From contig JAFTGD010000006.1 in assembly GCA_017458065.1 (NCBI GenBank), positions 45,748 through 109,747 of the forward strand: a DNA stretch of 64,000 nt. Direction: 5' to 3'. The notes under the pieces are model-generated. The model was not told the DNA's origin, searched no databases, and saw only the letters and a program-made list of their open reading frames with translations. Made by a program: the position numbers and the translations under genes. This DNA is from Oscillospiraceae bacterium. Its GTDB lineage: Bacteria; Bacillota; Clostridia; Oscillospirales; Oscillospiraceae. Positions 1 to 59,604 of this stretch are shown here, one piece after another; the first letter of the stretch is position 1, and each line of letters begins with the position of its first letter.

Positions 1-917
1 TTGCCGATCAGGTAGTCAAAAACAATGATGTCCCACAGCTTCAGCTGATCAGTGATAGGATCGGCAGAATGCTTTCTGAGGATTTCAAACATGCCTTTCA
101 GGTATCCCCGCGGTTCTTTCTCATACTTTGCCGTGGCCGGAATCCCCATAGCCTGGGCAAAATCCTCCTGATGGAGACGGTACGGCTTCGGCATCCCGTC
201 GATAACCGCGCCGCCTGGCTCAAACATCCTGTCGTACCGCTGCGTGGCAAAGAGCACCTCATGTTCCTTGCCCTTCCCGGTGTTGATAATGAAGCTGTCC
301 GGTGTGTCGAGTCCGCAGCGAGCGGCGGTCATCAGCGACAGTTTCTCATTGGTCACGATCGCCTCAAGCCGCACGTGGCTTTGCTTAACAATGTGAGTGC
401 TTGGCGCCGTTCCACGGGGCAGATACCACGTTCCTGTCCGGGCATCGTAATATAGACCGACCTTGCCGGATGCGCCAGTAAGCGACAGGTGCGACTTGGT
501 GACAAGCTCTGCGGACTTTGACGCTCCCTCAGCTGCAAGTTCCTGAACCTCCGCTTCTGTAATCCGCTCATAGGAAGCGCCTACCGAATCGCTGTCATCC
601 GTGATGCAGACAGCACCCAGGCACTCGCGGCCTAACCCATGAAGAATGGACAGATAGTCTCCCTCGTCGACGTGCATCCACTGGGCAACCGTACGCCGGG
701 TGAAGCCTTCCGGGAGAAGACCCTCAAAATAGCTGGCCGTCTGTTCTGCGGTAAAGTCGTCTTCCTGCATGGGCAGGCTGACGGAAACCGGCGTTCCGTT
801 TCCGTTCCGGTACTCGTCGAGGTACCGAAAACGGGCATCTGAAGCCGCCTCTCCTGTTATCGTGCCAACGGGGACAAGCTCTCCGTTCTTTTCTATGCTT
901 ACATGCAGCTCTTTCAT
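1..917 (-). CDS. hipA: HipA-family serine/threonine kinase toxin, partial (C-terminus off the window)
   Basis: The frame opens with ATG at 917 on the minus strand and stays open to base 1, so at least 305 codons are visible and the end is missing. The translation begins MKELHVSIEKNGELVPVGTI and carries HipA landmarks in order: an N-terminal domain with SLPMQ near residue 50, LLPEGFTRR near 70, LGRECLGAVC near 95, SLTGASGKVGLY near 143, GTAPSTHIVK near 164, then TQRYDR and HQEDFAQAMG. HipA kinases phosphorylate aminoacyl-tRNA synthetases, or related targets, and cause growth arrest. The catalytic Asp region lies beyond the last visible residues (IVFDYLIGN). The start follows the hipB stop by 3 bases, so the two genes form one operon. 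The N-terminal domain is present, so this is the one-piece HipA form rather than a split HipS/HipT. Confidence 0.87.
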   Translation of the reverse strand, partial: MKELHVSIEKNGELVPVGTITGEAASDARFRYLDEYRNGNGTPVSVSLPMQEDDFTAEQTASYFEGLLPEGFTRRTVAQWMHVDEGDYLSILHGLGRECLGAVCITDDSDSVGASYERITEAEVQELAAEGASKSAELVTKSHLSLTGASGKVGLYYDARTGTWYLPRGTAPSTHIVKQSHVRLEAIVTNEKLSLMTAARCGLDTPDSFIINTGKGKEHEVLFATQRYDRMFEPGGAVIDGMPKPYRLHQEDFAQAMGIPATAKYEKEPRGYLKGMFEILRKHSADPITDQLKLWDIIVFDYLIG

Positions 918-920
918 CGG

Positions 921-1130
921 TCAGCTCCTCGGTGTTAGCGAACAGTCCAGTCCGAGAAGGTTGGCAAGATAGATTGCTTTTCCCAGTTCCGCGGTGCTCT
1001 TTCCGTTTTCCAGATCAGAGATAAAAGTCACGCTGAACCCGCTGAATTCGGAAAGAAAAGCCTGCGTATATCCCAGTTCTTTGCGCCGCCGGCGCAGAGC
1101 TTCTCCGAAATCTTTTGCATCCGTGACCAT
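921..1130 (-). CDS. hipB: HipB-like XRE antitoxin and autorepressor
   Basis: This 69-residue protein is almost entirely one helix-turn-helix: DFGEALRRRRKELGYTQAFL, then FSGFSVTFISDLENGKSTAE, then a helical end IYLANLLGLDC. That is the XRE/Cro fold used by HipB antitoxins, which bind the HipA kinase and repress their own operon. An excellent ribosome site (TTGGAGG) precedes the ATG at 1130. hipA starts 3 bases after the stop, the usual antitoxin-first order. Three repeated palindromes lie upstream in the promoter, as expected for autoregulation. The assignment rests on the fold plus the hipA partner. The direct target of this particular protein is inferred. Confidence 0.88.
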   Translation of the reverse strand: MVTDAKDFGEALRRRRKELGYTQAFLSEFSGFSVTFISDLENGKSTAELGKAIYLANLLGLDCSLTPRS

Positions 1131-1148
1131 AAAATCGCCTCCAATTCA

Positions 1149-1244
1149 GCCGTTCGGCGAAATTGCCATCAATATCGATTGCATTTTGCCGTTCGGCTAA
1201 TTTCTTTTGCCGCCATTATACTCTATGCCGTTCGGCTAAGTCAA
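1149..1244 (-). promoter_or_regulatory. hipBA promoter with three evenly spaced operator palindromes
   Basis: On the minus strand, TTGACT (plus 1239-1244) and TATAAT (plus 1215-1220) are 18 bases apart and form a near-consensus sigma-A promoter. The ten-base GCCGAACGGC occurs at 1227-1236 (between the -35 and -10), 1188-1197 and 1149-1158, all in the same orientation and exactly 39 bases apart. The innermost copy lies next to the hipB ribosome site. Repressor binding at the first site would directly block RNA polymerase. That the binder is HipB is inferred from position. Confidence 0.75.
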
Positions 1245-1280
1245 GAAGAACAGGAGGAGAGTCAGAAATTCAGTTATTGA

Positions 1281-1466
1281 CACATCGCATCAAAATACAG
1301 CATCGTCCAGCAAAAAATCGATAATTCCGATGTTCAAGACTCCATTGTCGTCATACGGCATCTCCTGCTGCTACACTACGCCGCCTGCTGGGCGCCAAAG
1401 GCCGAGGAGATCTGGGAAGCCAGAAAAGAGCAGCAGGCCCGCGAAAAAGCGGCCATGGAGCAGTAA
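1281..1466 (+). pseudogene. Remnant reading frame without a start codon
   Basis: A frame of 61 codons runs from just after a TGA (1278-1280) to TAA at 1464-1466 with no ATG, GTG or TTG near its beginning. It encodes a hydrophobic middle (VVIRHLLLLHYAACW) and a charged helical tail (AEEIWEARKEQQAREKAAM). The tail reads like genuine protein sequence, so this may be the 3' end of a decayed gene. No family was recognised. A non-standard start cannot be ruled out. Confidence 0.3.
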
Positions 1467-1498
1467 TTTATTAACGAAACCGAGAGGAGGAAAATGAC

Positions 1499-1588
1499 GT
1501 GAACAAGAAAAAGCTCACCGCACTGTGCGCTCTTTGCATCACCGCCGCTGCGGCGCTGGTCTTTGCAAAGAAAAAGCTGAGCAACTGA
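1499..1588 (+). CDS. 29-residue single-span membrane peptide
   Basis: A GTG at 1499 follows a strong ribosome site (GAGGAGG, 1484-1490) with 8-base spacing and opens a 29-codon frame ending at TGA 1586-1588. The peptide has a basic start (MNKKKL), one hydrophobic stretch of about 14 residues rich in Ala, Leu and Cys, and a lysine-rich end. That fits one short membrane span or a toxin-like peptide. No family was recognised. The ATG at 1494 cannot be used because TGA follows one codon later. It lies 33 bases after the remnant frame and before a dyad at 1609-1638, so it may be the last gene of a decayed operon. Confidence 0.45.
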   Translation: MNKKKLTALCALCITAAAALVFAKKKLSN

Positions 1589-1608
1589 TGTTTCAGCTGA
1601 TAACGGTC

Positions 1609-1638
1609 ATGGCCGATCCCATCAAACGGATCGGCCAT
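1609..1638 (+). terminator. Hairpin after the small peptide gene
   Basis: Two complementary 11-base arms (1609-1619 and 1628-1638, containing GGCCGATCC and GGATCGGCC) are separated by 8 bases. The sequence downstream is pyrimidine-rich but has no real T run, so factor-independent termination is only moderately supported. Confidence 0.4.
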
Positions 1639-1754
1639 CACTCCATCTCTCTATACTTTCTCATTATAATGGGAAGTTAAGCATTAATTTCTGATTGTCC
1701 GTACTCATGTTTGCGTAATATTGGTAAAATGTCATCACGAGAAGAGGTGGTACT

Positions 1755-2486
1755 GTGGCCCTGCGTGAATTCGGGGAATCCAAACAACTGGAACAGTTTT
1801 TGCTCTCGCGCCTCGCCAAACGCGAGGTAACCGATATCGTACACAAATATGCCAGGCCATATAAAGAACTCATGGCCTACTATCGCTGTGCCATGATGGA
1901 GGTATCCGCAAAATTCAATGTACTCAATGAGGAGCTGTCTCTCCAATACGACCGCAATCCCATCGAAACCATCAAGACCCGGCTGAAATCCCCAGAGAGC
2001 ATCGTGGAAAAGCTGCAGCGCCGCGGCTATCCTCTGACCGTGGAAAGTATTGAGAGCAACCTCAACGACGTAGCAGGCGTACGGGTGATCTGCTCTTATA
2101 CTTCTGATATTTACATGCTGGCGGAGGCGTTTATCCGACAGGATGACATTTCGCTCCTGGAGCGGAAGGATTATATCGAAAATCCAAAGCCCAACGGTTA
2201 CCGGAGCCTCCATCTGATCGTGGAAATCCCCATCTTCCTGCACGATGAAAAGCGGATGATGAAGGTGGAGGTACAGTTCCGTACGATCTCCATGGATTTC
2301 TGGGCCAGCCTTGAGCACAAGATCCGCTATAAAAAAGATCTTCCCGTCAATGAGGAAGTGGAAAAAGAACTCTATGAATGCGCCATCGTGTCGGCGGAAT
2401 TGGAAAACCGGATGGAGAGGATCCAGAAAATGGCTGACCGGTACCGGACAAACGAGGCCGATCAGCAGGGCGGCCGCCCATGGTAA
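1755..2486 (+). CDS. relQ: Small alarmone synthetase, RelQ/YjbM-type GTP pyrophosphokinase
   Basis: The 243-residue protein has the RelA/SpoT synthetase domain and nothing else: IKTRLKSPESIVEKLQRRGY near 70-90, NLNDVAGVRVICSY near 108, PKPNGYRSLHLIVEIP near 146, then EVQFRTISMDFWASLEHKI. It transfers pyrophosphate from ATP to GDP or GTP to make (p)ppGpp. The hydrolase, TGS and ACT domains of long Rel are absent, and the length is typical of the RelQ/YjbM family. The GTG at 1755 is chosen because AGAGG lies just upstream and the N-terminus then matches family length. It stands alone, without an obvious operon partner. Confidence 0.9.
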   Translation: MALREFGESKQLEQFLLSRLAKREVTDIVHKYARPYKELMAYYRCAMMEVSAKFNVLNEELSLQYDRNPIETIKTRLKSPESIVEKLQRRGYPLTVESIESNLNDVAGVRVICSYTSDIYMLAEAFIRQDDISLLERKDYIENPKPNGYRSLHLIVEIPIFLHDEKRMMKVEVQFRTISMDFWASLEHKIRYKKDLPVNEEVEKELYECAIVSAELENRMERIQKMADRYRTNEADQQGGRPW

Positions 2487-2600
2487 CGGCCGTCCTGCCC
2501 CGCACATTTGCGGAATCCGTCGCACTTCTTACGGAAGTGTAAAATCATAGTACCATCAATCACCCGCAGCTTCAACGGATCAGACAAGATGGATATAGAA

Positions 2601-2628
2601 ACAGGTACGGCAGCTGTGCCATACCTGT
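2601..2628 (-). terminator. Dyad beyond the XRE regulator gene
   Basis: Two 12-base arms around a 4-base centre are complementary except for one position (2601-2612 with 2617-2628). On the minus strand the dyad follows the XRE gene stop by about 25 bases and is followed by TTTC. The T run is weak, so this is a possible terminator rather than a firm one. Confidence 0.4.
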
Positions 2629-2652
2629 TATCGTGGGGCGTTATCATGGATC

Positions 2653-2958
2653 TTACGCTTCTGACAGGGCCGATCGGTTTTTTTCTCTCAGGTGCTTCGC
2701 CAGAGCTTGCAGCATTGCAACATCCTTCTCGGATAGTCCTGCGGTGTCGATCGTCTCTCTCCGATCGAGGCCAAGAAGATAATCCGTTGAAACGTGAAAC
2801 ACACCTGACAGCTTTACCAACACAAGGGGTGAGGGCGAGCGATCCTGCAGTTCGTAGAAACTGATGACCGACTTTGTCACGCCGATCAGTTGTCCCAATT
2901 GTTTTTGGGATAAGCCTGCGTTCTTTCGCAGTTCCTTTAAGCGCTGGCCAAATTCCAC
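2653..2958 (-). CDS. XRE-family transcriptional regulator
   Basis: The core reads EFGQRLKELRKNAGLSQKQL, then IGVTKSVISFYELQDRSPSP, then the VFHVSTDYLLGLD ending typical of short XRE repressors. A predicted 20-residue helical tail follows. The GTG at 2958 puts the HTH at the very N-terminus and has a GGAG about 10 bases upstream. An in-frame ATG at 2985 would add nine residues but has no ribosome site. It is divergent from the TetR gene at 3092. Its target is unknown, and self-regulation or control of the divergent promoter is plausible from position only. Confidence 0.78.
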   Translation of the reverse strand: MEFGQRLKELRKNAGLSQKQLGQLIGVTKSVISFYELQDRSPSPLVLVKLSGVFHVSTDYLLGLDRRETIDTAGLSEKDVAMLQALAKHLREKNRSALSEA

Positions 2959-3032
2959 TAATATCACACTCCATTCCACATACATTATGCAACAAAGAGG
3001 TGCAATATTGGTAGATTTAGAAACTAAAATTG

Positions 3033-3062
3033 TTGACTGATTAGCCTGAAATCTGCTATAAT
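3033..3062 (+). promoter_or_regulatory. Promoter of the TetR-family gene
   Basis: TTGACT (3033-3038) and TATAAT (3057-3062) are separated by 18 bases and sit 30 bases before the TetR ATG. A GGGGGAG ribosome site follows. Confidence 0.7.
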
Positions 3063-3091
3063 AAAAAAAAGCAAATCGGGGGAGACAGTCC

Positions 3092-3658
3092 ATGGCGAAT
3101 ACCAGTATTACAAAAAAGGTGATTCGGGAAGCTTTTGTTGAACTCCTGAATGAGCGCGCTCTGAGCAAAATAACGGTCAAGGATATTACGGATCGCTGCG
3201 GCATCAACCGCAACACGTTTTATTATCATTATCAGGACGTGCCGGCGCTGGTAGAAGAGATTTGCTCCTTGCAAGTTGACCGTATCGTACAGGATTATCC
3301 GACGCTTAACTCCCTTGATGGCTGCATCCAGGCTGCGATGAAGTTCGCGATGGAGAACAAGCGTGCGATCTACCATCTTTATTATTCTGACAATCGCAGC
3401 ACCTATGTCAGTGCCCTGTGGCGCATCTGTGAGCAGGCCGTCCGAACTTATATTGATACGGTCTTCTCAGAGAACGAGCTCTCCGGTCGTGATCGGGAGA
3501 TCATCATCCGTTACCATAAATGTGAATGCTTTGGTCTGATTATCGACTGGATCAGCAATGGGATGCGGGAAGATCTTCTTGAGGATATGCACCGGCTCCT
3601 CCAGCTCCGCAAGGGCTCGACAGAGGAATTGATCCGAAGAAGCAAGAAAAAATCATAA
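3092..3658 (+). CDS. TetR/AcrR-family transcriptional regulator
   Basis: The first 60 residues form a TetR DNA-binding domain: TKKVIREAFVELLNERALSK, then ITVKDITDRCGINRNTFYYH, then YQDVPALVEEI. The remaining 130 residues are helical and resemble the C-terminal domain found in DhaS/YcdC-like TetR proteins. The ligand is unknown. It lies divergent from the XRE regulator and is followed by a strong hairpin, so it is monocistronic. No efflux pump or enzyme gene is adjacent, so the target cannot be inferred from context. Confidence 0.85.
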   Translation: MANTSITKKVIREAFVELLNERALSKITVKDITDRCGINRNTFYYHYQDVPALVEEICSLQVDRIVQDYPTLNSLDGCIQAAMKFAMENKRAIYHLYYSDNRSTYVSALWRICEQAVRTYIDTVFSENELSGRDREIIIRYHKCECFGLIIDWISNGMREDLLEDMHRLLQLRKGSTEELIRRSKKKS

Positions 3659-34767: not shown

Positions 34768-34834
34768 AAAAATCCTCTATCATGGGCTCTGTCCGGGACC
34801 ATCCGGAACAGAATGACATGATGGAGGATTTTTT
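34768..34834 (+). terminator. Terminator hairpin carrying the recombinase ribosome site
   Basis: Seventeen-base arms (34768-34784 and 34817-34833) pair almost perfectly. An inner stem (TCTGT.CGG with CCG.ACAGA) extends the hairpin, and the distal arm runs into six T. It terminates the CofE-like gene. The same distal arm contains GGAGG at 34823-34827, 8 bases before the recombinase ATG at 34836, so the hairpin also sequesters that ribosome site. Confidence 0.8.
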
Positions 34835-34835
34835 G

Positions 34836-35444
34836 ATGGAAATTACGAAAGAGAGCGGAAAAATCTACGGATATGCCCGCGTATCGACAAAAGAACAGAA
34901 AACCGATCGGCAGCTGGATGCGCTTTTGGAATATGGAATTCCGCGCAAGCAAATCCTGACGGATCAGATATCGGGCAAGACCTTTGAACGCCCTGCCTGG
35001 CAGAAGCTGTTAAGAACGATTCGTCCGGGCGACACACTGGTTGTCGTCAGCATTGATCGCATCGGCCGTGATTATGACGAGATCCAGGTCCAGTGGAAGC
35101 ATATCACGCGGGACCTCAAGGCCAATATTGCGGTACTGGATATGCCGCTGCTGGACACGCGACAGGGGCGAGATCTCACCGGGACGCTGATCGCCGATCT
35201 GGTGCTACAGATTCTCAGCTATGTAGCGCAGACCGAGCGAGAGATGATCCGCAAGCGACAGCGGGAGGGGATTGACGCGGCACTCTCCAGAGGAGTCCGG
35301 TTTGGACGCAGACCGAAAGCGCCGCCGGAGCACTTCTCCGAAATCTGCAGGCAGTGGCATGACGGCGCATTTAACTCCGTCGAAGCGGCCAGACGCACCG
35401 GTGTCTGTCAGAAGACCTTTCTCCGTTGGGCGAGGGAAGTGTGA
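34836..35444 (+). CDS. Small serine recombinase (resolvase/invertase type)
   Basis: The 202-residue protein has the resolvase catalytic domain: IYGYARVSTKEQKTDRQLDA with the nucleophile Ser17, then GDTLVVVSIDRIGRDYDEI near 70, DLVLQILSYVAQTEREMIRKR near 125-145, and a C-terminal helix-turn-helix (FNSVEAARRTGVCQKTFLRW). It cuts and rejoins DNA at short crossover sites, either inverting or resolving. It is too short to be a large integrase. No transposase is nearby and no inverted crossover-site pair is obvious. It lies at the junction between the housekeeping block and the helicase-capsule region. Confidence 0.92.
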   Translation: MEITKESGKIYGYARVSTKEQKTDRQLDALLEYGIPRKQILTDQISGKTFERPAWQKLLRTIRPGDTLVVVSIDRIGRDYDEIQVQWKHITRDLKANIAVLDMPLLDTRQGRDLTGTLIADLVLQILSYVAQTEREMIRKRQREGIDAALSRGVRFGRRPKAPPEHFSEICRQWHDGAFNSVEAARRTGVCQKTFLRWAREV

Positions 35445-37985: not shown

Positions 37986-39431
37986 ATGTATAAGAGAAAT
38001 GCACAGGGCTGGTCGAAGCATTTCGATTTCATGATAGTTGATGAAATCAGCCTTCAGATCGCATTTATCCTGGCGGCTGTTATCCGCAACCATATTTGGG
38101 CATATGCAGTCCCTCTTTATCGAACAATGGGAATCACACTCATTTTAGTGGATGCTGTTGTTCTTGTACTGCATAACTCTTTGCATGATGTAGTGAAACG
38201 CGGGGTTTACGCTGAAACAATAGAGACCTTCAAGCATTGCTTTTATGTATTGGCCATCGCAGCGATCTACATGTTTGCCACGCAAACGGGTGATGCCTAT
38301 TCCAGGATTATTCTTTTCGTTACCTTCCTTCTCCATCTCCTGTTTGGCCATTGCACTCGCATTGTTTGGAAAACTTTTATCAAGAAACATGGCGCTGCAA
38401 AAGAAAAGAAAAACAGTATGCTCGTTGTTGCAGCTTCGGATACAGCAGAAGACATCCTGAAGCGCCTGAGCAGCGATGATCTTGCTGATTTTAAGATCAC
38501 CGGCGTTGTCCTTACAGAACAGACTGAAAATAAAACGATTGGCGGTTATCCCATTGTTGCGGACATGGATGGTGCGGCTGACTACATCGTCCGTGAATGG
38601 GTCGACTCTGTGTATATCGATGCGCCGTTAACCGATGAGAAGGTCATCAAACTGATGGACGACTGCTCAATCATGGCAGTTCCAACTCATTATCACGTCC
38701 CGAACATGAGCCGCAACGGAGTAAAGAGGTTCTCCGAGAAGATCGGTGGGACGACCGTACTTACGACCTCGATCAACTATGCTACGCCGATTCAGATGCT
38801 GATGAAACGCTGCTTCGATATTGTCGCAGGGCTGATTGGAAGCCTTATTGCGCTTATCATTATGGCCATCGTTGGACCGATCATTAAGAAACAATCGCCG
38901 GGCCCGATCTTGTTTTCACAGGAGAGAATCGGGCAGAACGGCAAGCGATTCAAAATGTACAAGATCCGCTCGATGTATATGGATGCGGAAGAGCGCAAGA
39001 AGGACTTGATGGATCAGAACCGCGTGAAGGACGGCATGATGTTCAAACTCGACTTTGATCCTCGCATTATCGGCAACGAGATCCTGCCAGACGGAACCAA
39101 GAAAACCGGCATCGGAGACTTCATCAGGCGTACGTCACTGGACGAATTCCCGCAATTCTTCCTGGTCCTAAAAGGGACGCTCAGTACCGTAGGAACACGG
39201 CCTCCCACAATCGACGAGTACATCCGGTATCAGTATCACCACCGTGCAAGAATGGCTACAAAACCGGGCATCACAGGGATGTGGCAGGTCAACGGACGCA
39301 GTGAAATCACCGATTTTGAAGAGGTTGTGCGGCTTGATACGGAATACATCACCAACTGGAGTATCGGCTTGGACTTAAAAATCCTGTTTAAAACAATTGG
39401 AGTGCTCTTCTCTCACGAGGGTGCAATGTAG
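37986..39431 (+). CDS. Polyprenyl-phosphate sugar-1-phosphate transferase (priming enzyme)
   Basis: This enzyme starts repeat-unit synthesis by moving a sugar phosphate to undecaprenyl phosphate. The 481-residue protein has four to five N-terminal membrane spans (residues about 25-130), a cytoplasmic NAD-fold-like domain, then the catalytic Bac_transf domain from about residue 268: MKRCFDIVAGLIGSLIALII, then KKQSPGPILFSQERIGQNGK, FKMYKIRSMYMDAE, RRTSLDEFPQFFLVLKGTLS, and KPGITGMWQVNGRSEI. It resembles WbaP/EpsL-type enzymes. The sugar (galactose, glucose or N-acetyl-hexosamine) cannot be told. It is the first gene of the polysaccharide locus, and base composition drops clearly from the helicase gene to here. 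Confidence 0.93.
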   Translation: MYKRNAQGWSKHFDFMIVDEISLQIAFILAAVIRNHIWAYAVPLYRTMGITLILVDAVVLVLHNSLHDVVKRGVYAETIETFKHCFYVLAIAAIYMFATQTGDAYSRIILFVTFLLHLLFGHCTRIVWKTFIKKHGAAKEKKNSMLVVAASDTAEDILKRLSSDDLADFKITGVVLTEQTENKTIGGYPIVADMDGAADYIVREWVDSVYIDAPLTDEKVIKLMDDCSIMAVPTHYHVPNMSRNGVKRFSEKIGGTTVLTTSINYATPIQMLMKRCFDIVAGLIGSLIALIIMAIVGPIIKKQSPGPILFSQERIGQNGKRFKMYKIRSMYMDAEERKKDLMDQNRVKDGMMFKLDFDPRIIGNEILPDGTKKTGIGDFIRRTSLDEFPQFFLVLKGTLSTVGTRPPTIDEYIRYQYHHRARMATKPGITGMWQVNGRSEITDFEEVVRLDTEYITNWSIGLDLKILFKTIGVLFSHEGAM

Positions 39432-39456
39432 AGGTCATGTCCTGACGAGCTAACTG

Positions 39457-39775
39457 TTACTTCTAATGTGCAATTTACATAGAAGAGATACAAAATATGG
39501 TATTTAGAACGTCGGAAAGCACAATATGTAGTCTTATCAGAGCCCATATTGCATCATAAATCGCTCATATTGCGTCGAAAAGGGCTTGTACGAACGTGAG
39601 CAAGCCGAGAGAAAACTATTACTTCTAATAGGCAATTGTCGTGGCAGGGCCATATATAGCGTTTGCGGAGCGGAAAACCACAAGATATAGGCGAGCAAAA
39701 GTCCATATTGCGTCAGAAAGGGCTTCTGCGAACATGAGCAAGCCGAGAGAAAACTATTACTTCTAATAGGCAATT
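39457..39775. repeat. 72-bp direct repeats with a third partial copy
   Basis: Two 72-base direct repeats (39566-39637 and 39704-39775) are offset by 138 bases and share most positions. Both begin CATATTGCGTC, carry a hairpin (GGCTT... with ...AAGCC) and end CTTCTAATAGGCAATT. A partial copy of the end (TTACTTCTAATGTGCAATT) lies at 39457-39475, and CATATTGC occurs a third time at about 39544. The 373-base gap between the priming enzyme and the first truncated cassette is filled by these repeats, and no gene is seen. They may be a dispersed repeat or recombination sites. Confidence 0.7.
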
Positions 39776-39804
39776 TTTGAAATAAGAACTAGGAGGCCAG
39801 ATGA

Positions 39805-40326
39805 ATGGCTGATAACACAAAACAGAATATGGCCTCTGTGCAACATGTTTTCGTCATTGGAAGCAAGTCCATTGGACAGTACGGAGGCTATGAGACCTTC
39901 GTAGATAAACTGACTGAACAGCATCAAAACGATCCGACAATCAAATACCACATCGCCTGCAAAGCCAACGGCGACGGATTTATGGACGAGTCAAAGCTTG
40001 AGGGCGTGGAAATCACCAAGAAGAACAGCGATGGGAGCGTGGCAGAGTTCACATACCACAACGCTCATGTGTTCAAGATCCCCTGCCCGAATATTGGACC
40101 CGCTGTGGCGATCTATTATGATCGGGCAGCTGTGAAGTATAGCATTCAATATTGCAAAGATAACAAGATAGAGAATCCTATTTTCTATATCCTCACCTGT
40201 CGTATTGGTCTGTTTATAGATGGACTGGTGAAGCAGATCAAAGCAATTGGTGGTTCATATGCCCTAAACCCCGACGGGGATGCACAGATAATAAGCCGAA
40301 AAAATATAGGGCTGATGGCGGCGTAA
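39805..40326 (+). CDS. Truncated rhamnosyltransferase N-terminal domain, cassette 1
   Basis: The 173-residue product matches the first 150 residues of the full-length DUF1972 glycosyltransferase at 41052: VFVIGSKSIGQYGGYETFVD, then KYHIACKANGDGFMDESKL, then AHVFKIPCPNIGPAVAIYYD. After the shared NPDG it diverges into a short tail, DGDAQIISRKNIGLMAA, and stops. The sugar-nucleotide-binding C-terminal GT-B domain is missing, so it is probably inactive alone. It has its own GGAGG ribosome site. The segment 40102-40199 is identical to cassette 2. Confidence 0.82.
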   Translation: MADNTKQNMASVQHVFVIGSKSIGQYGGYETFVDKLTEQHQNDPTIKYHIACKANGDGFMDESKLEGVEITKKNSDGSVAEFTYHNAHVFKIPCPNIGPAVAIYYDRAAVKYSIQYCKDNKIENPIFYILTCRIGLFIDGLVKQIKAIGGSYALNPDGDAQIISRKNIGLMAA

Positions 40327-40340
40327 GGAGGCCAAAGGAA

Positions 40341-40856
40341 ATGGAGAAAAAACAGAATAAGGCCTCAGTACAGCATATTTTCATCATAGGGTCTAAGTCC
40401 ATTGGACAGTATGGAGGCTATGAGACCTTCGTAGATAAGCTGACTGAACAGCATCAAAACGATCCAACCATCAAATACCATATCGCCTGCAAAGCCAACG
40501 GCGACGGGTTCATGGATGAGAGTAAGTTGGATCACATTTCTGATGTAGCGAAAGATAAGGATGGAAATGTAAGAGAATTTACATACCACAACGCCCATGT
40601 ATTCAAGATTCCCTGTCCAAATATTGGGCCTGCTGTGGCGATCTATTATGATCGGGCAGCTGTGAAGTATAGCATTCAATATTGCAAAGATAACAAGATA
40701 GAGAATCCTATTTTCTATATCCTCACCTGCCGTATTGGGCTGTTCATTGATGGTCTGGTGAAGCAGATCAAGGCAATCGGAGGAAGGTACTATCTGAATC
40801 CGGACGGGGATACACAGATAATAAGCCGAAAAAATATAGGGCTGATGGCGGCGTAG
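40341..40856 (+). CDS. Truncated rhamnosyltransferase N-terminal domain, cassette 2
   Basis: The 171-residue product is a second partial copy of the same N-terminal domain with its own GGAGG site. Its first 30 codons are nearly identical to the full gene at 41052. A middle segment (LDHISDVAKDKDGNVREF) is private to this copy. Its 98-base stretch 40632-40729 is identical to cassette 1, as is the tail sequence from 40803 apart from one base. The truncation point and tail are the same as in cassette 1. The mosaic pattern points to gene conversion among the three copies. Confidence 0.82.
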   Translation: MEKKQNKASVQHIFIIGSKSIGQYGGYETFVDKLTEQHQNDPTIKYHIACKANGDGFMDESKLDHISDVAKDKDGNVREFTYHNAHVFKIPCPNIGPAVAIYYDRAAVKYSIQYCKDNKIENPIFYILTCRIGLFIDGLVKQIKAIGGRYYLNPDGDTQIISRKNIGLMAA

Positions 40857-40901
40857 AAGGGCCGCAATAAGGGTAGAACAGAAGAAATTTTGTCTCAGGC
40901 A

Positions 40902-41006
40902 TTGACAATCTGTTCAGCTGAATGTATTATTAGACATGTTCAGCTGACTGTAGTTGTATTTGCCTATGAGTTTTGAGAGGAGCACAGGCATGGATGGTCA
41001 GCTGAA
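40902..41006 (+). promoter_or_regulatory. Promoter with three TTCAGCTGAA-type palindromes
   Basis: TTGACA (40902-40907) and TATTAT (40925-40930) are 17 bases apart. The perfect palindrome TTCAGCTGAA (40913-40922) fills the spacer. TTCAGCTGA recurs at 40939-40947, over the likely transcription start, and TCAGCTGAA at 40998-41006, inside the leader reading frame. This looks like a regulated promoter reading into the full-length rhamnosyltransferase gene. The regulator is unknown. Confidence 0.72.
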
Positions 41007-41055
41007 CTTTTCTGTTTGTGGTTCTGAAAATGATATTGAGGAGCTGCAACGATGA
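40990..41055 (+). CDS. 21-residue leader peptide coupled to the rhamnosyltransferase gene
   Basis: ATG 40990 follows GAGAGGAGC and opens 21 codons (MDGQLNFSVCGSENDIEELQ plus Arg), whose TGA overlaps the ATG of the next gene (ATGA at 41052-41055). The next gene has only a modest ribosome site inside this leader, so coupled translation is likely. The peptide matches nothing I recognise. It may exist only to carry the third palindrome and deliver ribosomes. Confidence 0.5.
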   Translation: MDGQLNFSVCGSENDIEELQR

Positions 41056-42269
41056 GTACACAGCATATTTTCATCATAGGGTCTAAGTCCATTGGACAAT
41101 ATGGAGGCTATGAGACCTTCGTAGACAAGCTGACTGAACAGCATCAGAATGACTACTCCATTAAGTATCACATTGCCTGCAAAGCCAACGGCGACGGGTT
41201 CATGGACGAGAGTAAGTTGGATGGAATTGAGGTGCTAAAGAAAAACAGCGATGGAAGTGTGGCTGAGTTCACATACCACAACGCCCATGTCTTCAAGATC
41301 CCCTGCCCGAATATTGGACCCGCTGTTGCTATCTATTATGATCGAGCGGCAGTGAAGTATAGCATTCAGTATTGTAAAGATCACAAGATAGAGAATCCGA
41401 TATTCTATATCCTCACCTGTCGTATTGGACTGTTTATAAATGGGTTGGTCAAGCAGATTAAGGCAATCGGAGGTAAATATTACCTGAATCCCGACGGACA
41501 TGAATGGAAACGCCAAAAATGGAATTTTTTGGTTCGTAAATACTGGAAATGGTCTGAGAAGAAGATGGTCAACGCAGCCGATGTGGTTGTCTGCGACTCA
41601 GTGAATATAGAGAAGTATATACAGCAAACGTATCACCATCCTCAAACGACTTTTATAGCTTACGGATCTGATACGGTTCCTTCCACTCTCTCTGATACCG
41701 ATCCAAAGTTTACGGGTTGGCTCAAGGAGAAAGGACTGAAGGCTGATGGGTACTATCTTGTAGTTGGCCGGTTCGTTCCAGAGAATAACTACGAGACGAT
41801 GATCCGTGAGTTTATAAAGTCCCATTCCACACGGGACTTTGCTCTGATCACGAACACAAATGAGAAATTCTTAGATGAGCTGGATCAGAAGCTCAGGTGG
41901 AGGAGTGATCTTCGGATCAAATTCGTCGGCACGGTGTATGACAAAGAACTGCTGAAGAAGATCAGAGAGAATGCATATGCGTACTTCCATGGCCACGAGG
42001 TCGGTGGTACAAATCCGAGCCTGTTGGAGGCGCTGGGAAGTACTGAACTGAATCTGCTTCTTGATGTTGGTTTTAACCGAGAAGTTGGAGCAGATGCTGC
42101 TCTGTACTGGAAGAAAGAGGACGGAGACTTGGCGAAGCTCATTGATAAAGCTGATGGAATGTCCACAGAAGAACGAACGGGGTATGGAGTTGCTGCTAAG
42201 GCAAGGATAACGAACGCATATAGTTGGGAGCATATTGGAAACAAGTATATGAGTTTGTGGAATTTGTGA
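41052..42269 (+). CDS. DUF1972-family rhamnosyltransferase (full length)
   Basis: This 405-residue GT-B glycosyltransferase has the DUF1972 N-terminal domain (FIIGSKSIGQYGGYETFVDK, ending NPDGHEWKRQKW) and a C-terminal GT4 domain with YYLVVGRFVPENNYETMIREF near 235-255, KFVGTVYDKELLKKIRENAYAYFHGHEVGGTNPSLLEALGS around 290-335, and a closing helical region. Relatives such as Cps2T are beta-1,4-rhamnosyltransferases that add rhamnose early in repeat-unit assembly, which agrees with the rfb genes downstream. It is preceded by two truncated copies of its own 5' part. It is the last gene before the strongly AT-rich block. Confidence 0.9.
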   Translation: MSTQHIFIIGSKSIGQYGGYETFVDKLTEQHQNDYSIKYHIACKANGDGFMDESKLDGIEVLKKNSDGSVAEFTYHNAHVFKIPCPNIGPAVAIYYDRAAVKYSIQYCKDHKIENPIFYILTCRIGLFINGLVKQIKAIGGKYYLNPDGHEWKRQKWNFLVRKYWKWSEKKMVNAADVVVCDSVNIEKYIQQTYHHPQTTFIAYGSDTVPSTLSDTDPKFTGWLKEKGLKADGYYLVVGRFVPENNYETMIREFIKSHSTRDFALITNTNEKFLDELDQKLRWRSDLRIKFVGTVYDKELLKKIRENAYAYFHGHEVGGTNPSLLEALGSTELNLLLDVGFNREVGADAALYWKKEDGDLAKLIDKADGMSTEERTGYGVAAKARITNAYSWEHIGNKYMSLWNL

Positions 42270-42291
42270 TTTTTTAGGAGGCAAGCTTGCT

Positions 42292-43644
42292 TTGAGGATT
42301 GCACATTATTTTTTAGGATTTCCTCCATATAGAACAGGCGGCTTGACAAAATACGCCTATGACTTGATGATTTCACAACGAGAGGAGGGAAATGAATTAT
42401 TCGCATTTTGGCCAGGAAGAATAAGTCCTATTAATAGAAGAATTTACTTTAAAGAAACGATAAAACCTGAAGGTATTATAAGCATAGAGATTATTAATTC
42501 GCTACCTGTTTCCTTAGATGAGGGTATAAAAGCTGTAGATGCATATACCAAGGGCACGAATAAAAATGAGATTTTGGAGTATTTGAGAAGGATTAATCCA
42601 GATGTTATACATATACATACATTAATGGGATTGCATAAGGAGTTTGTTGATGCCGCTAAATCTTTAAATATTAAAACGATATATACAACACATGATTATT
42701 TTGGGATATGCCCTAAAGTGACTTTATATCGTAACGGAGAAACATGTGATAATGATCAGGGTTGTCAAGTGTGCATTATGTGTAATATTAAGGCCTTATC
42801 ATTAAGAAAAATAGAACTCCTGCAATCTCCACTATATAGAAACTTAAAGAATTCAAATACTATAAGAGCACTTCGAAAGAGGCATCGACAGCACTTTTTT
42901 GAAGAAGATGAGACTTGGAGTGGCCCAAAGGGGTTTCAGGTGACTCAGCATGATGCTGCCAAATACCGCGAACTACGAGCATACTATAAGACGATATTAG
43001 AAACGATAGACTTAATTCATTTTAATTCTTCACTTACCAAAGAAGTATTCGAGCGATATATAAGCCCGAATAGATCAACTGTTATTTCAATAACGCATAA
43101 GAATGTTAAAGATAATCGTCAAAATCGAAGCAAAAAATGGAATGGTAAGCTGTCTATAACATGTCTTGCTCCGGCAAGGCCTTACAAGGGGTTTGACGTT
43201 TTACGTAGCGCATTGGACGAACTTTGGGAAGAAGGAAAGCGATTTTTCGAATTAAGAGTTTATAGCCCTGTAAAGAATCCGGCACCGTATATGATAATAA
43301 ATGAAGATGGATTTAATCAGAGTGAGTTACAAACTATTTTTGGAATGTCTGATGTACTTATCGCACCAAGTATTTGGTATGAGACATTTGGTTTTACGGT
43401 TTTAGAAGCATTGAGTTATGGTGTACCTGTGATTGTAAGTGATCATATGGGGTCAAAAGATATTATCGGCTCAGCTGGGATTGTAATATCCGCAGGAAAT
43501 GTATGTGAACTTAAAGATTCGATTATCTCAATGTATGAATCAAAATGTGCTCCATATGCACATTGTGTAAACGATAATAACATAGTGATTAAGTCTTGGG
43601 ATACACATGTAAAAGAGCTTACAGGTCTTTACCAATGGAAATAA
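42292..43644 (+). CDS. Glycosyltransferase family 4
   Basis: The 450-residue protein is a GT-B glycosyltransferase: IAHYFLGFPPYRTGGLTKYA at the start, NPDVIHIHTLMGLHKEF near 102, LAPARPYKGFDVLRSALDEL near 305, and the nucleotide-sugar pocket APSIWYETFGFTVLEALSYG near 365-385. A cysteine-rich loop (CDNDQGCQVCIMC) near 160 may bind metal. It starts with TTG at 42292 after AGGAGG. The acceptor and donor sugars are unknown. This gene begins the AT-rich block. Confidence 0.87.
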   Translation: MRIAHYFLGFPPYRTGGLTKYAYDLMISQREEGNELFAFWPGRISPINRRIYFKETIKPEGIISIEIINSLPVSLDEGIKAVDAYTKGTNKNEILEYLRRINPDVIHIHTLMGLHKEFVDAAKSLNIKTIYTTHDYFGICPKVTLYRNGETCDNDQGCQVCIMCNIKALSLRKIELLQSPLYRNLKNSNTIRALRKRHRQHFFEEDETWSGPKGFQVTQHDAAKYRELRAYYKTILETIDLIHFNSSLTKEVFERYISPNRSTVISITHKNVKDNRQNRSKKWNGKLSITCLAPARPYKGFDVLRSALDELWEEGKRFFELRVYSPVKNPAPYMIINEDGFNQSELQTIFGMSDVLIAPSIWYETFGFTVLEALSYGVPVIVSDHMGSKDIIGSAGIVISAGNVCELKDSIISMYESKCAPYAHCVNDNNIVIKSWDTHVKELTGLYQWK

Positions 43645-55970: not shown

Positions 55971-56990
55971 ATGAACATTATAGTCACAGGCGGGGCCGGT
56001 TTTATCGGCGGGAATTTTATTCATTATTATTTGAAAGAGCATCCGGAAGACAGGGTGATTTGCGTTGATAAACTCACATATGCTGGGAATCTGTCAACAC
56101 TTGCGCCTGTCATGGATAATCCAAACTTCCGCTTCTGCAGGCTTGATATCTGTGATAGAGAGAATGTTTTTTCCTTATTCGAGGAAGAGAAGCCGGATGC
56201 GGTGATCAACTTTGCAGCAGAAAGTCATGTAGATAGGTCTATTGAAAATCCGGGAATCTTCCTTCAGACCAACATCATTGGCACGGCCACAATGATGGAT
56301 GCATGTAGGGCCTTTGGGAACATTCGTTACCATCAGGTGAGTACCGATGAGGTGTACGGAGATCTGCCTTTAGACCGCCCTGATTTGTTCTTCACAGAGA
56401 CCACGCCGATTCATACCTCAAGCCCTTACAGTAGTAGTAAGGCTGGGGCTGATCTGTTGGTGCAGGCTTATCAGAGGACTTATGGCTTGCCGATCACTAT
56501 TAGCCGGTGCTCCAACAACTATGGACCGTATCATTTCCCAGAGAAGCTCATCCCGCTGATGATTGCGAACTGCCTGAATGATAAGCCACTTCCAGTTTAC
56601 GGTGAAGGCCTGAACGTTCGTGATTGGCTCTATGTTGAAGATCACTGTAAGGCGATTGATCTGATCCTTCATAAGGGACGCATTGGCGAGGTTTACAATG
56701 TTGGCGGTCACAATGAGATGCGGAACATTGACATCGTGAAGCTGATAATTGAAGCTCTCGGTAAGGATGAATCTCTTATCACTTATGTGACAGATCGTAA
56801 AGGCCACGATCTTCGCTATGCGATTGATCCTACTAAGATCCATGAAGAATTGGGGTGGCTCCCGGAGACAAAGTTCCAGGATGGCATTAAGAAGACAATA
56901 AAGTGGTATCTGGAAAACCGCCAGTGGTGGGAAGAAATCATCAGTGGCGAGTATCAGAACTACTATGAAAAAATGTATGGGAACAGGTAA
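55971..56990 (+). CDS. rfbB: dTDP-glucose 4,6-dehydratase
   Basis: RfbB is the second enzyme of dTDP-L-rhamnose synthesis and makes dTDP-4-keto-6-deoxyglucose. The 339-residue SDR protein has NIIVTGGAGFIGGNFIHYYL at the start, LTYAGNLSTL near 39, NFAAESHVDRSIENP near 81, the YxxxK pair in TSSPYSSSKAGADLL near 150, NNYGPYHFPEKLIPL near 182, and VYGEGLNVRDWLYVEDHC near 208. All catalytic residues are in place. It is the first gene of the rhamnose set. Confidence 0.96.
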   Translation: MNIIVTGGAGFIGGNFIHYYLKEHPEDRVICVDKLTYAGNLSTLAPVMDNPNFRFCRLDICDRENVFSLFEEEKPDAVINFAAESHVDRSIENPGIFLQTNIIGTATMMDACRAFGNIRYHQVSTDEVYGDLPLDRPDLFFTETTPIHTSSPYSSSKAGADLLVQAYQRTYGLPITISRCSNNYGPYHFPEKLIPLMIANCLNDKPLPVYGEGLNVRDWLYVEDHCKAIDLILHKGRIGEVYNVGGHNEMRNIDIVKLIIEALGKDESLITYVTDRKGHDLRYAIDPTKIHEELGWLPETKFQDGIKKTIKWYLENRQWWEEIISGEYQNYYEKMYGNR

Positions 56991-57060
56991 CTGCACCACC
57001 TGAGAAGAGTGACAACGGTGTGGAAAGATGGATATAGGAGCCGATAAGGTCTAGGAATAG

Positions 57061-57183
57061 TTGACTGTTTTTGTAACTGGTGTGAATGGACAACTTGGTC
57101 ATGATGTTGTCAAGGAGTTATTGAAGCGAAGACATGTCGCTGTTTGCAGCGGTAGTGGTCAGAGTTATAAAGGAGCAGACGAT
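57061..57183 (+). repeat. Diverged in-frame duplicate of the rfbD 5' end
   Basis: From TTG 57061, codons for VFVTGVNGQLGHDVVKELL repeat the first Rossmann strand-loop-helix of rfbD, which appears again 123 bases (41 codons) later as VFVTGVGGQLGHDVVNNL. The two copies differ at many synonymous sites, so this is not a fresh slippage duplication. The frame continues without a stop into rfbD, so a longer fusion protein is possible if 57061 is used. A ribosome site (AAAGGAG) just before 57184 suggests the proper gene begins there. Confidence 0.7.
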
Positions 57184-58098
57184 TTGAAGGTATTTGTAAC
57201 GGGAGTTGGTGGGCAGCTTGGACACGATGTGGTCAATAATCTAACTGCTCGTTGGCATGAAGCTGTTGGGTCTGATATACAGGCCATCTATGCTGGGATA
57301 CAGGATAATAGCGCAGTTGTGAGCGCACCGTATGTTCAGCTGAATATTACGGATAGAGAAGCGGTGGAGAAGGTAATCGAGGAGCTTCGTCCAGACGCCA
57401 TCATCCACTGCGCTGCATGGACAAATGTGGATGGAGCAGAAGATCCAGAGAAGAAGGATACCGTCCAAAAAATCAACGCAGAAGGGACGCAGAATATTGC
57501 AGATGCAGCAAAGGCAATCGGTGCGAAGATGCTGTACCTGTCTACAGATTATGTCTTTGATGGGCAGGGAGATCGTCCCTGGGAACCAGACGATAAATGC
57601 TATGCACCGTTAAATATCTACGGTCAGAGTAAGCTGGATGGCGAGTTGGCAGTAGCCAATACACTGGAAAAATACTTCATCGTTCGAATTGCCTGGGTTT
57701 TCGGACTGAATGGAAAGAACTTTATCAAGACGATGATTAATGTGGGAAAGACCCACGATACGGTACGGGTGGTCAACGATCAGATTGGCACGCCGACCTA
57801 TACGCTGGATCTTGCACGCCTGCTGGTTGATATGATTGAGACAGAGAAGTACGGCTACTATCATGCGACCAACGAGGGTGGCTATATCTCCTGGTACGAT
57901 TTCTGCTGCGAGTTCTATAAGCAGTATGGTCTGGAAACCAAAGTCATCCCGGTAACTACAGCAGAGTATGGTTTGTCGGTTGCAGCTCGTCCATTTAATT
58001 CTCGTCTGGAAAAGCGGAAGTTAGTAGAGGCTGGCTTCGAACCTCTTCCCACATGGCAAGATGCAGTAAGCAGATATTTGAAGGAGGCGAAGCTGTGA
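57184..58098 (+). CDS. rfbD: dTDP-4-dehydrorhamnose reductase
   Basis: RfbD performs the last step to dTDP-L-rhamnose. With TTG 57184 (AAAGGAG at 57169-57175, 8-base spacing) the protein is 304 residues, close to family length. Starting at 57061 it would be 345 and contain a doubled N-terminus. Motifs are VFVTGVGGQLGHDVVNNL, HCAAWTNVDGAEDP near 85, the catalytic LSTDYVFDGQGDRPW near 119, YGQSKLDGE near 145, and RIAWVFGLNGKNF. The order rfbB-D-C-A differs from the common rfbA-C-B-D order. It ends 1 base before rfbC. Confidence 0.94.
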   Translation: MKVFVTGVGGQLGHDVVNNLTARWHEAVGSDIQAIYAGIQDNSAVVSAPYVQLNITDREAVEKVIEELRPDAIIHCAAWTNVDGAEDPEKKDTVQKINAEGTQNIADAAKAIGAKMLYLSTDYVFDGQGDRPWEPDDKCYAPLNIYGQSKLDGELAVANTLEKYFIVRIAWVFGLNGKNFIKTMINVGKTHDTVRVVNDQIGTPTYTLDLARLLVDMIETEKYGYYHATNEGGYISWYDFCCEFYKQYGLETKVIPVTTAEYGLSVAARPFNSRLEKRKLVEAGFEPLPTWQDAVSRYLKEAKL

Positions 58099-58099
58099 C

Positions 58100-58705
58100 A
58101 TGGGTCAGATAACAGTACAAAGAGACATTGATGGAATTAAAGGGCTTTGCGTGATCATCCCTGCAGTTCATGGCGATAGTCGTGGATACTTCATGGAGAC
58201 GTACTCAGCCCGTGATATGGCGGAAGCCGGTATTGACATTGTGTTCGTTCAAGACAACCAAAGCATGAGCACCAAGGGTGTTCTTCGTGGTCTGCACTTC
58301 CAGAAGCAGTACCCTCAGACGAAACTTGTTAGAGTTATAAAGGGTGAAGTCTTTGATGTAGCTGTGGATCTGCGAGCAGAAAGCCCTACATATGGAAAAT
58401 ATCACGGGGAACTTCTTACAGAGGACAATAAAAAGCAATTTCTAATTCCTCGCGGTTTTGCACATGGTTTCCTGGTTCTTTCTGATACGGCTGAGTTCTG
58501 CTATAAGTGTGATGATTTCTATCATCCCAACGATGAAGGAGGCATGGCATGGAACGATCCGGAAATTGGAATTCAGTGGCCGAAGCTGGAGGGAGAATAT
58601 CACGGTACAGCGAGTGCTGAAGGATACACTGTAGATGGAGTGGCGCTGAATCTCTCAGATAAAGACCAGAACTGGCTCGGCATCAAAGATACGTTCAAGT
58701 TTTAA
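58100..58705 (+). CDS. rfbC: dTDP-4-dehydrorhamnose 3,5-epimerase
   Basis: RfbC epimerises C3 and C5 of the 4-keto sugar. The 201-residue cupin protein has the family marks VHGDSRGYFMETYSARDM near 27, VQDNQSMSTKGVLRGLHFQK near 50-70 with the catalytic His, VRVIKGEVFDVAVDLR near 80, and IPRGFAHGFLVLSD near 118. It lies 1 base after rfbD. Its length and motifs are standard. Confidence 0.96.
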   Translation: MGQITVQRDIDGIKGLCVIIPAVHGDSRGYFMETYSARDMAEAGIDIVFVQDNQSMSTKGVLRGLHFQKQYPQTKLVRVIKGEVFDVAVDLRAESPTYGKYHGELLTEDNKKQFLIPRGFAHGFLVLSDTAEFCYKCDDFYHPNDEGGMAWNDPEIGIQWPKLEGEYHGTASAEGYTVDGVALNLSDKDQNWLGIKDTFKF

Positions 58706-58716
58706 GGAGGTAGGAG

Positions 58717-59604
58717 ATGAAAGGAATTGTATTAGCTGGTGGGAGCGGAACCAGACTCTATCCGCTTACCAAAGTTACAAGTAAGCAGCTCCTCCCAATA
58801 TATGATAAACCCATGATCTATTATCCTCTCAGCACACTCATGCTTGCGGGGATTAGGGATATCCTGATTATCAGTACTCCGGATGACACACCTCGGTTTG
58901 AAGTACTGCTCGGTGATGGTAGCCAGTTCGGTATCAGCCTGAGGTATAAGGTACAGCCTTCACCCGACGGGCTTGCACAGGCATTCATCCTTGGCGAAGA
59001 GTTTTTAGATGGTGAAGCCGGAGCCATGGTTCTGGGTGATAACATCTTCTACGGGAACGGCTTCCGGACACTGCTGAAGGCTGCCGTGAAAGATGCTGAG
59101 GAAAATGGCAGGGCAACCGTCTTTGGTTACTATGTTCCCGATCCGGAGCGGTTTGGGGTGGTCGAGTTTGATGAGAATGGGAAAGCTCTGTCAATCGAAG
59201 AGAAGCCGAAAGAGCCGAAGAGTAACTATGCCGTGACTGGTTTGTACTTCTACCCGGCTGGAGTAGCCGAGAGAGCCAATCAAGTGAAACCGTCAGCACG
59301 TGGTGAACTTGAAATTACAACACTGAACGAGATGTATCTCGAAGACAGCTTGCTGGATGTTCAGCTTCTGGGTCGTGGCTTTGCATGGCTCGATACAGGG
59401 ACGATGCAGAGCTTGCTACAGGCGGCTGAGTTTGTGGAAATGATTCAGTCCCGTCAGGGAATTACCATTTCAGCACCAGAAGAGATCGCCTACATAAATG
59501 GTTTCATAGGGAAAGAAAAGTTGTTGGAGAGCGCCAAGGCTTATGGTAAATCACCCTATGGTGAACATCTGAAAGCTGTGGCAGAAGGACGAGTTAAATA
59601 CTGA
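58717..59604 (+). CDS. rfbA: Glucose-1-phosphate thymidylyltransferase
   Basis: RfbA starts the pathway by making dTDP-glucose. The 295-residue protein has [20 protein letters not shown] with the GTRL loop, [20 protein letters not shown] near 23, [15 protein letters not shown] near 85, [10 protein letters not shown] near 108, and [20 protein letters not shown] near 198. It is intact and full length. GGAGG lies 6 bases before the ATG. It ends the rfb set and is followed by a terminator. Confidence 0.97.

Follow-up and report, generated by a model that had tools for sequence, protein, structure and literature searches.

Why should a polysaccharide locus carry two truncated copies of a glycosyltransferase gene directly in front of a complete one? 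The question is raised by a 64-kb window (the whole stretch of DNA analysed here) that is part of contig 49 (C49) of an Oscillospiraceae genome assembly of 3.6 Mb in 83 contigs. Two short open reading frames in this window, referred to below as cassettes 1 and 2, lie in tandem upstream of an intact rhamnosyltransferase gene of the Cps2T/WchF type (Table 1). A preliminary description of the locus had proposed either a silent-donor system that varies the enzyme or, as the simpler alternative, relics of repeated locus replacement, and the latter fits better. We consider it probable, at roughly 0.6, that each cassette is the 5' remainder of an earlier allele of the first glycosyltransferase, that these relics result from replacement events recurring at the left edge of the locus, and that recombination later reshaped them.

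Probable front halves of former first glycosyltransferases

The intact gene passes the 500-bit cut-off of NF046071 with 542 bits, as does its counterpart in the sister genome G030 (534 bits), and its product covers positions 2-186 of the 186-position Pfam profile DUF1972. The cassettes match this Pfam profile only at positions 1-129 and NF046071 only at positions 2-128 of 384, with 137 and 141 bits, in agreement with the preliminary description, according to which the two frames copy only the N-terminal DUF1972 half. As was also described, the similarity of both cassettes to the full-length gene ends at the same Gly codon, within NPDG, where a shared tail of about 50 bp follows, and each cassette has a ribosome site of its own. 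No orphan Cps2T back half was found in the genome. Other Cps2T-type relatives are full-length, namely the two other matches among 400 family genomes (517 and 416 aa) and the protein of genome G079 (locus L056, 413 aa). The synonymous divergence (dS) of the cassettes from the full gene is 0.90-0.98, with a ratio of nonsynonymous to synonymous divergence (dN/dS) of about 0.07; across all comparisons, the ranges are 0.80-0.98 and 0.07-0.12. Such high dS combined with low dN/dS fits alleles that would have diverged as working genes and been cut later, without proving it.

The G030 locus contains, in this order, a priming transferase gene (75% identical to that of the window), a VanZ-like gene, a truncated glycosyltransferase family 4 (GT4) gene with the tail, and the intact Cps2T gene. 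The truncated gene is a frame of 145 aa that matches Pfam Glyco_transf_4 at positions 2-107 of 170 and ends in the tail. The tail is not specific to the Cps2T gene: in the sister genome it caps a different glycosyltransferase family. In an alignment, the GT4 half and the Cps2T halves are cut at the same Gly of a G-x-[D/E]-W motif. Unlike in the window, the G030 remnant and the intact gene behind it belong to different families. Relatives of the GT4 half (E up to 1e-15) are encoded in eight of the 102 genus genomes, seven of them full-length (364-404 aa) and only the one in G030 truncated. In genome G005 (L080), an intact GT4 gene directly follows the priming transferase, and therefore the G030 half sits where a first glycosyltransferase belongs. 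When GT4 back halves were searched on 120,000 of the 121,877 bases of the G030 contig, they matched nothing but the intact Cps2T gene, with 26-30% identity. The first transferase that formerly stood here thus seems, in both species, to have been cut at an equivalent position, with a complete new one placed behind it.

Under the favoured explanation, incoming locus content led by a complete first glycosyltransferase would have landed 3' of the front half of its predecessor. The predecessor would have lost its back half, and its cut front half would have been capped by the constant tail. The resulting unit of about 530 bp, consisting of ribosome site, front half and tail, would then have doubled head to tail, and the relic copies would have exchanged sequence mutually and perhaps, weakly, with full-length alleles. 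We infer both this order of events and the lack of a present role for the relics.

The locus holds another 5' relic, fused to rmlD, which favours replacement scars as a process at work here. The TIGR01214 match of the rmlD product starts at residue 43, and the preceding relic agrees with the true gene start in 49 of 75 bases. For the background rate, we surveyed 509,901 bases, taken from this locus and related ones, for copies that lie no more than 2.5 kb 5' of a gene encoding 200 aa or more and share at least 45% identity with it. Five pairs were found: the two cassettes (91 and 90%), a front-part copy in G030 (L087, 47%), a back-part copy in L056 (47%) and a full-length tandem in L073 (59%). 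Relics that have become part of a longer frame, as in rmlD, escape this survey. The L073 pair (193-3119, genome G460) consists of two tandem full-length priming transferase genes at the head of their locus.

Sequence exchange among the copies

The preliminary description had called for a base-by-base alignment of the three copies with recombination tests, and had read their mosaic identity as gene conversion. We compared the copies over their common 438 bp, with permutation of the variable sites. Cassettes 1 and 2 differ at 76 sites, cassette 2 and the full gene at 69, and cassette 1 and the full gene at 73. The previously noted 98-base identity of the cassettes has no mismatch and exceeds chance (0 of 2000 permutations), and the maximum chi-square test is significant for this pair (P 0.0005). 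The three-way site pattern is likewise non-random, with 43 runs versus 64.8 expected, a count that no shuffle out of 20,000 reached (96 sites, the 8 at which all three copies differ being left out); this signal is driven at least in part by the tract common to the two cassettes.

Two further elements of the mosaic hold as well. Over the first 63 bp, cassette 2 and the full gene are identical at 62 positions, against 53 for cassette 1 and the full gene and 54 for the two cassettes; over the middle 96 bp, where cassette 2 alone is divergent, cassette 1 and the full gene agree at 82 positions, against 71 for cassette 2 and the full gene and 63 for the cassettes. In every block past these first 63 bp, the full gene is distinct from either cassette. 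The longest tracts shared with it, 38 bp in cassette 2 (P 0.37) and 35 bp in cassette 1 (P 0.42), are near chance, and the maximum chi-square tests against it are not significant (P 0.67 and 0.47, respectively). Scans of windows of variable sites gave P 0.02-0.15 for agreement of cassette 2 with the full gene and P 0.014-0.17 for that of cassette 1, with two of the six windows below 0.05, and the alternation of these two patterns alone gave P 0.07. These site patterns support recombination among the copies, its clearly significant part being that between the two truncated copies, and do not support donation from the cassettes to the working gene. The proposed gene conversion is thus partly supported.

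These results bear directly on the silent-donor proposal, in which the truncated copies would convert the intact gene and vary its acceptor-binding half. Silent cassettes serve antigenic variation in the pilS/pilE and vls systems. In silent-donor systems, the silent copies lack start signals, and the expressed gene carries tracts traceable to them. The cassettes resemble pilS/pilE and vls in that partial copies with mosaic identity lie near a complete one, and differ from them in having their own starts, in the lack of demonstrated transfer and in the presence of a non-homologous half in the sister species. The three-way mosaic, the near identity of cassette 2 and the full gene at the 5' end, and the two low scan windows all speak for such a system. 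So does the position of the divergent segment of cassette 2, roughly at residues 40-80 of GacB (which was not aligned here), a region proposed, in passages of the GacB study, for acceptor recognition or protein contacts (PMC6802508). For a streptococcal relative, published work supports the assumption that acceptor choice is set by the N-terminal half: as these passages report, replacement of GacB residues 1-178 by WchF residues 1-186 made the enzyme active on a different lipid acceptor (PMC6802508). Swaps in this half could therefore be of consequence, but the comparisons above do not demonstrate any with the working gene. Outside the 63 bp at the 5' end, the full gene lies at a dS near 1 from both cassettes, its tracts and chi-square values are at chance, and each cassette has an ATG and an AGGAGG. 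Moreover, the tail occurs in just two of the 102 genus genomes, and the tail-capped half of G030 cannot be a conversion donor for the Cps2T gene behind it because it belongs to another glycosyltransferase family, so that donors are not homologous in all carriers. Given the starts, the near-chance tracts and the unrelated G030 half, we regard silent donation to the working gene as improbable.

The conserved tail

The tails of cassette 1 and G030 are identical at 47 of 50 bases, including a 40-bp identical core. Between the two cassettes, third codon positions agree at 16 of 16 sites in the tail, while the halves agree at 97 of 145 (one-sided P 0.0025); between cassette 1 and G030, they agree at 15 of 16 tail sites versus 67 of 145 in the full genes (P 0.00018). 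The few differences all change residues and none is silent (A to T between the cassettes, MA to KV between cassette 1 and G030), and therefore constraint on the tail, if any, would act on the nucleotides.

The tail is rare. It was detected in two of the 102 genus genomes, that of the window included (up to 3 mismatches in 32 bases), and, among 394 genomes drawn from the order, a draw to which G030 did not belong, only in the genome of the window. A degenerate pattern run against genome contigs, possibly without the record of the window itself, recovered only the G030 record and one match in Victivallis that is apparently due to chance. The tail was found neither in viral contigs (exact 22-base pattern) nor in phages, and no description of such a tail was found in the portions of the literature searched, which does not prove its absence. 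The search elsewhere in the same assembly, suggested by the preliminary description, yielded just the two cassette copies (41-base pattern, up to 3 mismatches) and, with one model, a weak tail-like stretch in a second polysaccharide locus on contig 45 (L057:9533-9598, minus strand), located between a Nudix-like gene and a small frame, 1.8 kb behind the priming transferase of that locus. This stretch scores 25.4 bits with model R1, the best reversed decoy in the same 40 sources reaching 15.4 bits and the best other non-tail match in the 102 genus genomes 21.3 bits; a model built on sequence alone no longer detects it, and it is missing from the highest-ranking plain alignments, so that one model backs it and two other methods do not.

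Several possible identities of the tail were tried and rejected. As a decayed glycosyltransferase back half, it aligned no better than shuffles with four back halves (P 0.10, 0.38, 0.40 and 1.0). As the 3' end of another gene, read in frame +2, it had no relative in plasmids or phages and, by pattern in the fetched loci, met only the weak L057 stretch. No Rfam match at E up to 1 was found in 39400-42400; folding of the tail alone was no better than that of shuffles (z -0.12), and the values for longer stretches (z -1.5 to -1.9) are not convincing. As one of paired transposon ends, the tail had no convincing direct or inverted partner in 94 of the 109.7 kb of C49 or in 120 of the 121.9 kb of the G030 contig. 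The best other match in that search, 16 of 40 on the opposite strand (G030 L012:11757-11782; controls up to 13; E 1.4 with a sequence model), is probably due to chance; several further matches scored 1-3 above their own control.

Several observations weigh against relics of replacement. The 40-bp core is identical between species although the shared neighbouring genes are only 70.5 and 71.6% identical, and the only exact matches of at least 20 bp between the locus of the window (4.35 kb) and that of G030 (3.7 kb) are those in the tail, of 40 and 33 bp; this counts against the explanation because a passive scar should have drifted. Random joints would hardly be expected to cut two families at the same homologous Gly. 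Both relics have open frames and good ribosome sites, decay is not evident, and changes derived in a single copy number 4 in cassette 1, 4 in cassette 2 and 2 in the full gene, of 145 residues. No terminator-like site was found between the relics and the intact gene. Finally, with so few carriers, the history of the tail rests on two genomes only. Replacement relics, the explanation we favour, account neither for the conservation of the tail at the nucleotide level nor for the same-codon cut in two families.

Both of these features would be expected of a dedicated replacement site, at which modules with a conserved start of about 50 bp join at the Gly codon of a resident GT-B transferase, cap its front half and supply a complete enzyme, a scenario to which we give little credence. 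The joint would be made by a recombinase or a homing-type cut at G-x-[D/E]-W codons, and the tail would be the left end of an incoming unit of tail, ribosome site and new glycosyltransferase gene. The nearly equal distance from the tail to the next ribosome site, between the cassettes and in G030, agrees with such a unit. However, no convincing second tail copy was found in the 94 kb of C49 or the 120 kb of the G030 contig, no interrupted back half was found, and the tail was not found elsewhere. A small serine recombinase gene lies upstream of the locus (34782-35444); at E 1e-3, a comparison with 33 stretches revealed no relative (6 from G030, 1 from contig 45 of the same genome and 26 from other genus genomes). 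We therefore deem this kind of targeted module as doubtful as silent donation.

Slightly less probable still is the possibility that the short frames encode working N-terminal acceptor-binding proteins, which would modulate either the intact enzyme or the pool of lipid-linked acceptors. The open frames with ribosome sites, the dN/dS of 0.07-0.12 and the fair confidence of the predicted N-domain structure (mean predicted local distance difference test, pLDDT, 72.4) are in its favour. However, the tail is disordered in the model (residues 157-173 below 50), the lack of silent tail differences means that selection on the tail peptide is not seen, and the low dN/dS may predate truncation. A fold search with the cassette 1 model gave weak matches only, MshA among them, and a sequence search of solved structures a single weak one; the predicted structure of the full enzyme is poor (mean pLDDT 59.5) and was not used. 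The region 39805-41051 had one weak match in plasmids, annotated as cps2T, and the protein of the full gene had no match in viral contigs. An assembly or binning artefact, conceivable given that the sister assembly is labelled a metagenome-assembled genome, that the assembly of the window is split into 83 contigs and that the copies are repetitive, is very unlikely in view of the longest identical tract between copies of only 98 bp and of two separate assemblies with a tail-capped half before an intact Cps2T gene.

Leader, flanking genes and related loci

The locus starts with the priming sugar transferase gene, followed by a gap with repeats, the two cassettes, a 195-bp leader and the intact gene; further glycosyltransferase genes and LicD lie 3' of it, and the dTDP (deoxythymidine diphosphate)-rhamnose genes, among which we take rmlB, rmlC and rmlA to be present, are at the right side. 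The locus also encodes what is presumably a flippase-like protein.

Table 1. Features of the polysaccharide locus in the window
Feature	Position	Strand	Match or basis
Priming sugar transferase, head of locus	37986..39431	+	Bac_transf + CoA_binding_3
Two 72-bp direct repeats, 93% identical, in gap 5' of cassette 1	39566..39775 (39566-39637, 39704-39775)	+	
AGGAGG, ribosome site of cassette 1, 8 bases before start; left end of homology between cassettes	39791..39796	+	
Cassette 1, 173 aa: N-terminal half of Cps2T/WchF-type rhamnosyltransferase and tail	39805..40326	+	
98-bp tract identical to 40632-40729	40102..40199	+	
Tail of cassette 1; first 40 bp identical to G030 L012:7258-7297	40276..40325	+	
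AGGAGG, ribosome site of cassette 2, 9 bases before start, overlaps cassette 1 stop	40326..40331	+	
Cassette 2, 171 aa: N-terminal half with own middle segment and tail	40341..40856	+	
Tail of cassette 2, 49/50 bases as cassette 1	40806..40855	+	
Leader of intact gene, absent 5' of cassettes	40857..41051	+	
Promoter-like TTGACA-17-TATTAT, 11/12 to consensus	40902..40930	+	sequence pattern
Three TCAGCTGA palindromes in 92 bp, possible operator	40914..41005 (40914, 40940, 40998)	+	
21-codon leader frame, stop overlaps intact-gene start (ATGA)	40990..41055	+	read from sequence
Intact beta-1,4-rhamnosyltransferase, Cps2T/WchF equivalog, 405 aa	41052..42269	+	NCBIfam NF046071
dTDP-rhamnose genes, right side of locus	55971..59604	+	frames; rmlD by TIGR01214 match
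5' relic of diverged rmlD, 42 codons, fused in frame before complete rmlD (whole frame including relic 57061-58098)	57061..57186	+	

The leader suggests that the intact gene may be read from a promoter of its own, predicted from the sequence, and would need no relic. The TTGACA-17-TATTAT string, a pattern picked post hoc from this very site, occurs three times in the window with at most one mismatch, versus 0.25 times in shuffles, and a broader promoter scan showed no excess (3 versus 3.8 expected). The palindrome, also a pattern chosen after being seen, occurs eight times in the window versus a mean of 1.3 in shuffles. The gap between the priming transferase and cassette 1 (39447-39776) contains a third, partial copy (30 bp) of the 72-bp repeat; an exact pattern for this repeat was found in no fetched locus except in copies of the same place.

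The overall arrangement is like that of streptococcal cps loci (WchA, WchF, Wzx, rmlA-D), as outlined in passages on these loci (PMC5111408): a priming transferase, WchF/Cps2T next to it, more transferases, what is presumably a flippase-like gene, and the dTDP-rhamnose genes. Unlike these loci, that of the window belongs to a host of the class Clostridia, and tandem WchF halves do not appear in those passages. The closest parallel to the relics themselves is meningococcal galE2, a truncated remnant proposed to have arisen when the capsule island recombined illegitimately into galE (PMC5349592). The same study reports that galE1, tex and galE2 have the highest recombination rates in that island. 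As with galE1 and galE2 (regions D and D'), the window has a truncated sugar-gene homologue at the margin of a presumably exchanged locus and an intact one within the locus. Unlike what is described there for galE2, its remnants stand in tandem before the intact gene, are doubled, and bear a tail that is constant across species and gene families.

It is easy to write off truncated glycosyltransferase genes as debris. In the present case, the same junction is found in two species and two families, at the same position of the protein. If joining occurs preferentially at this junction, that would account for the way in which enzymes of the committed step are swapped in polysaccharide loci and would provide a marker for finding these exchanges; as no more than a scar, the junction would still document that replacement has recurred at one fixed site.

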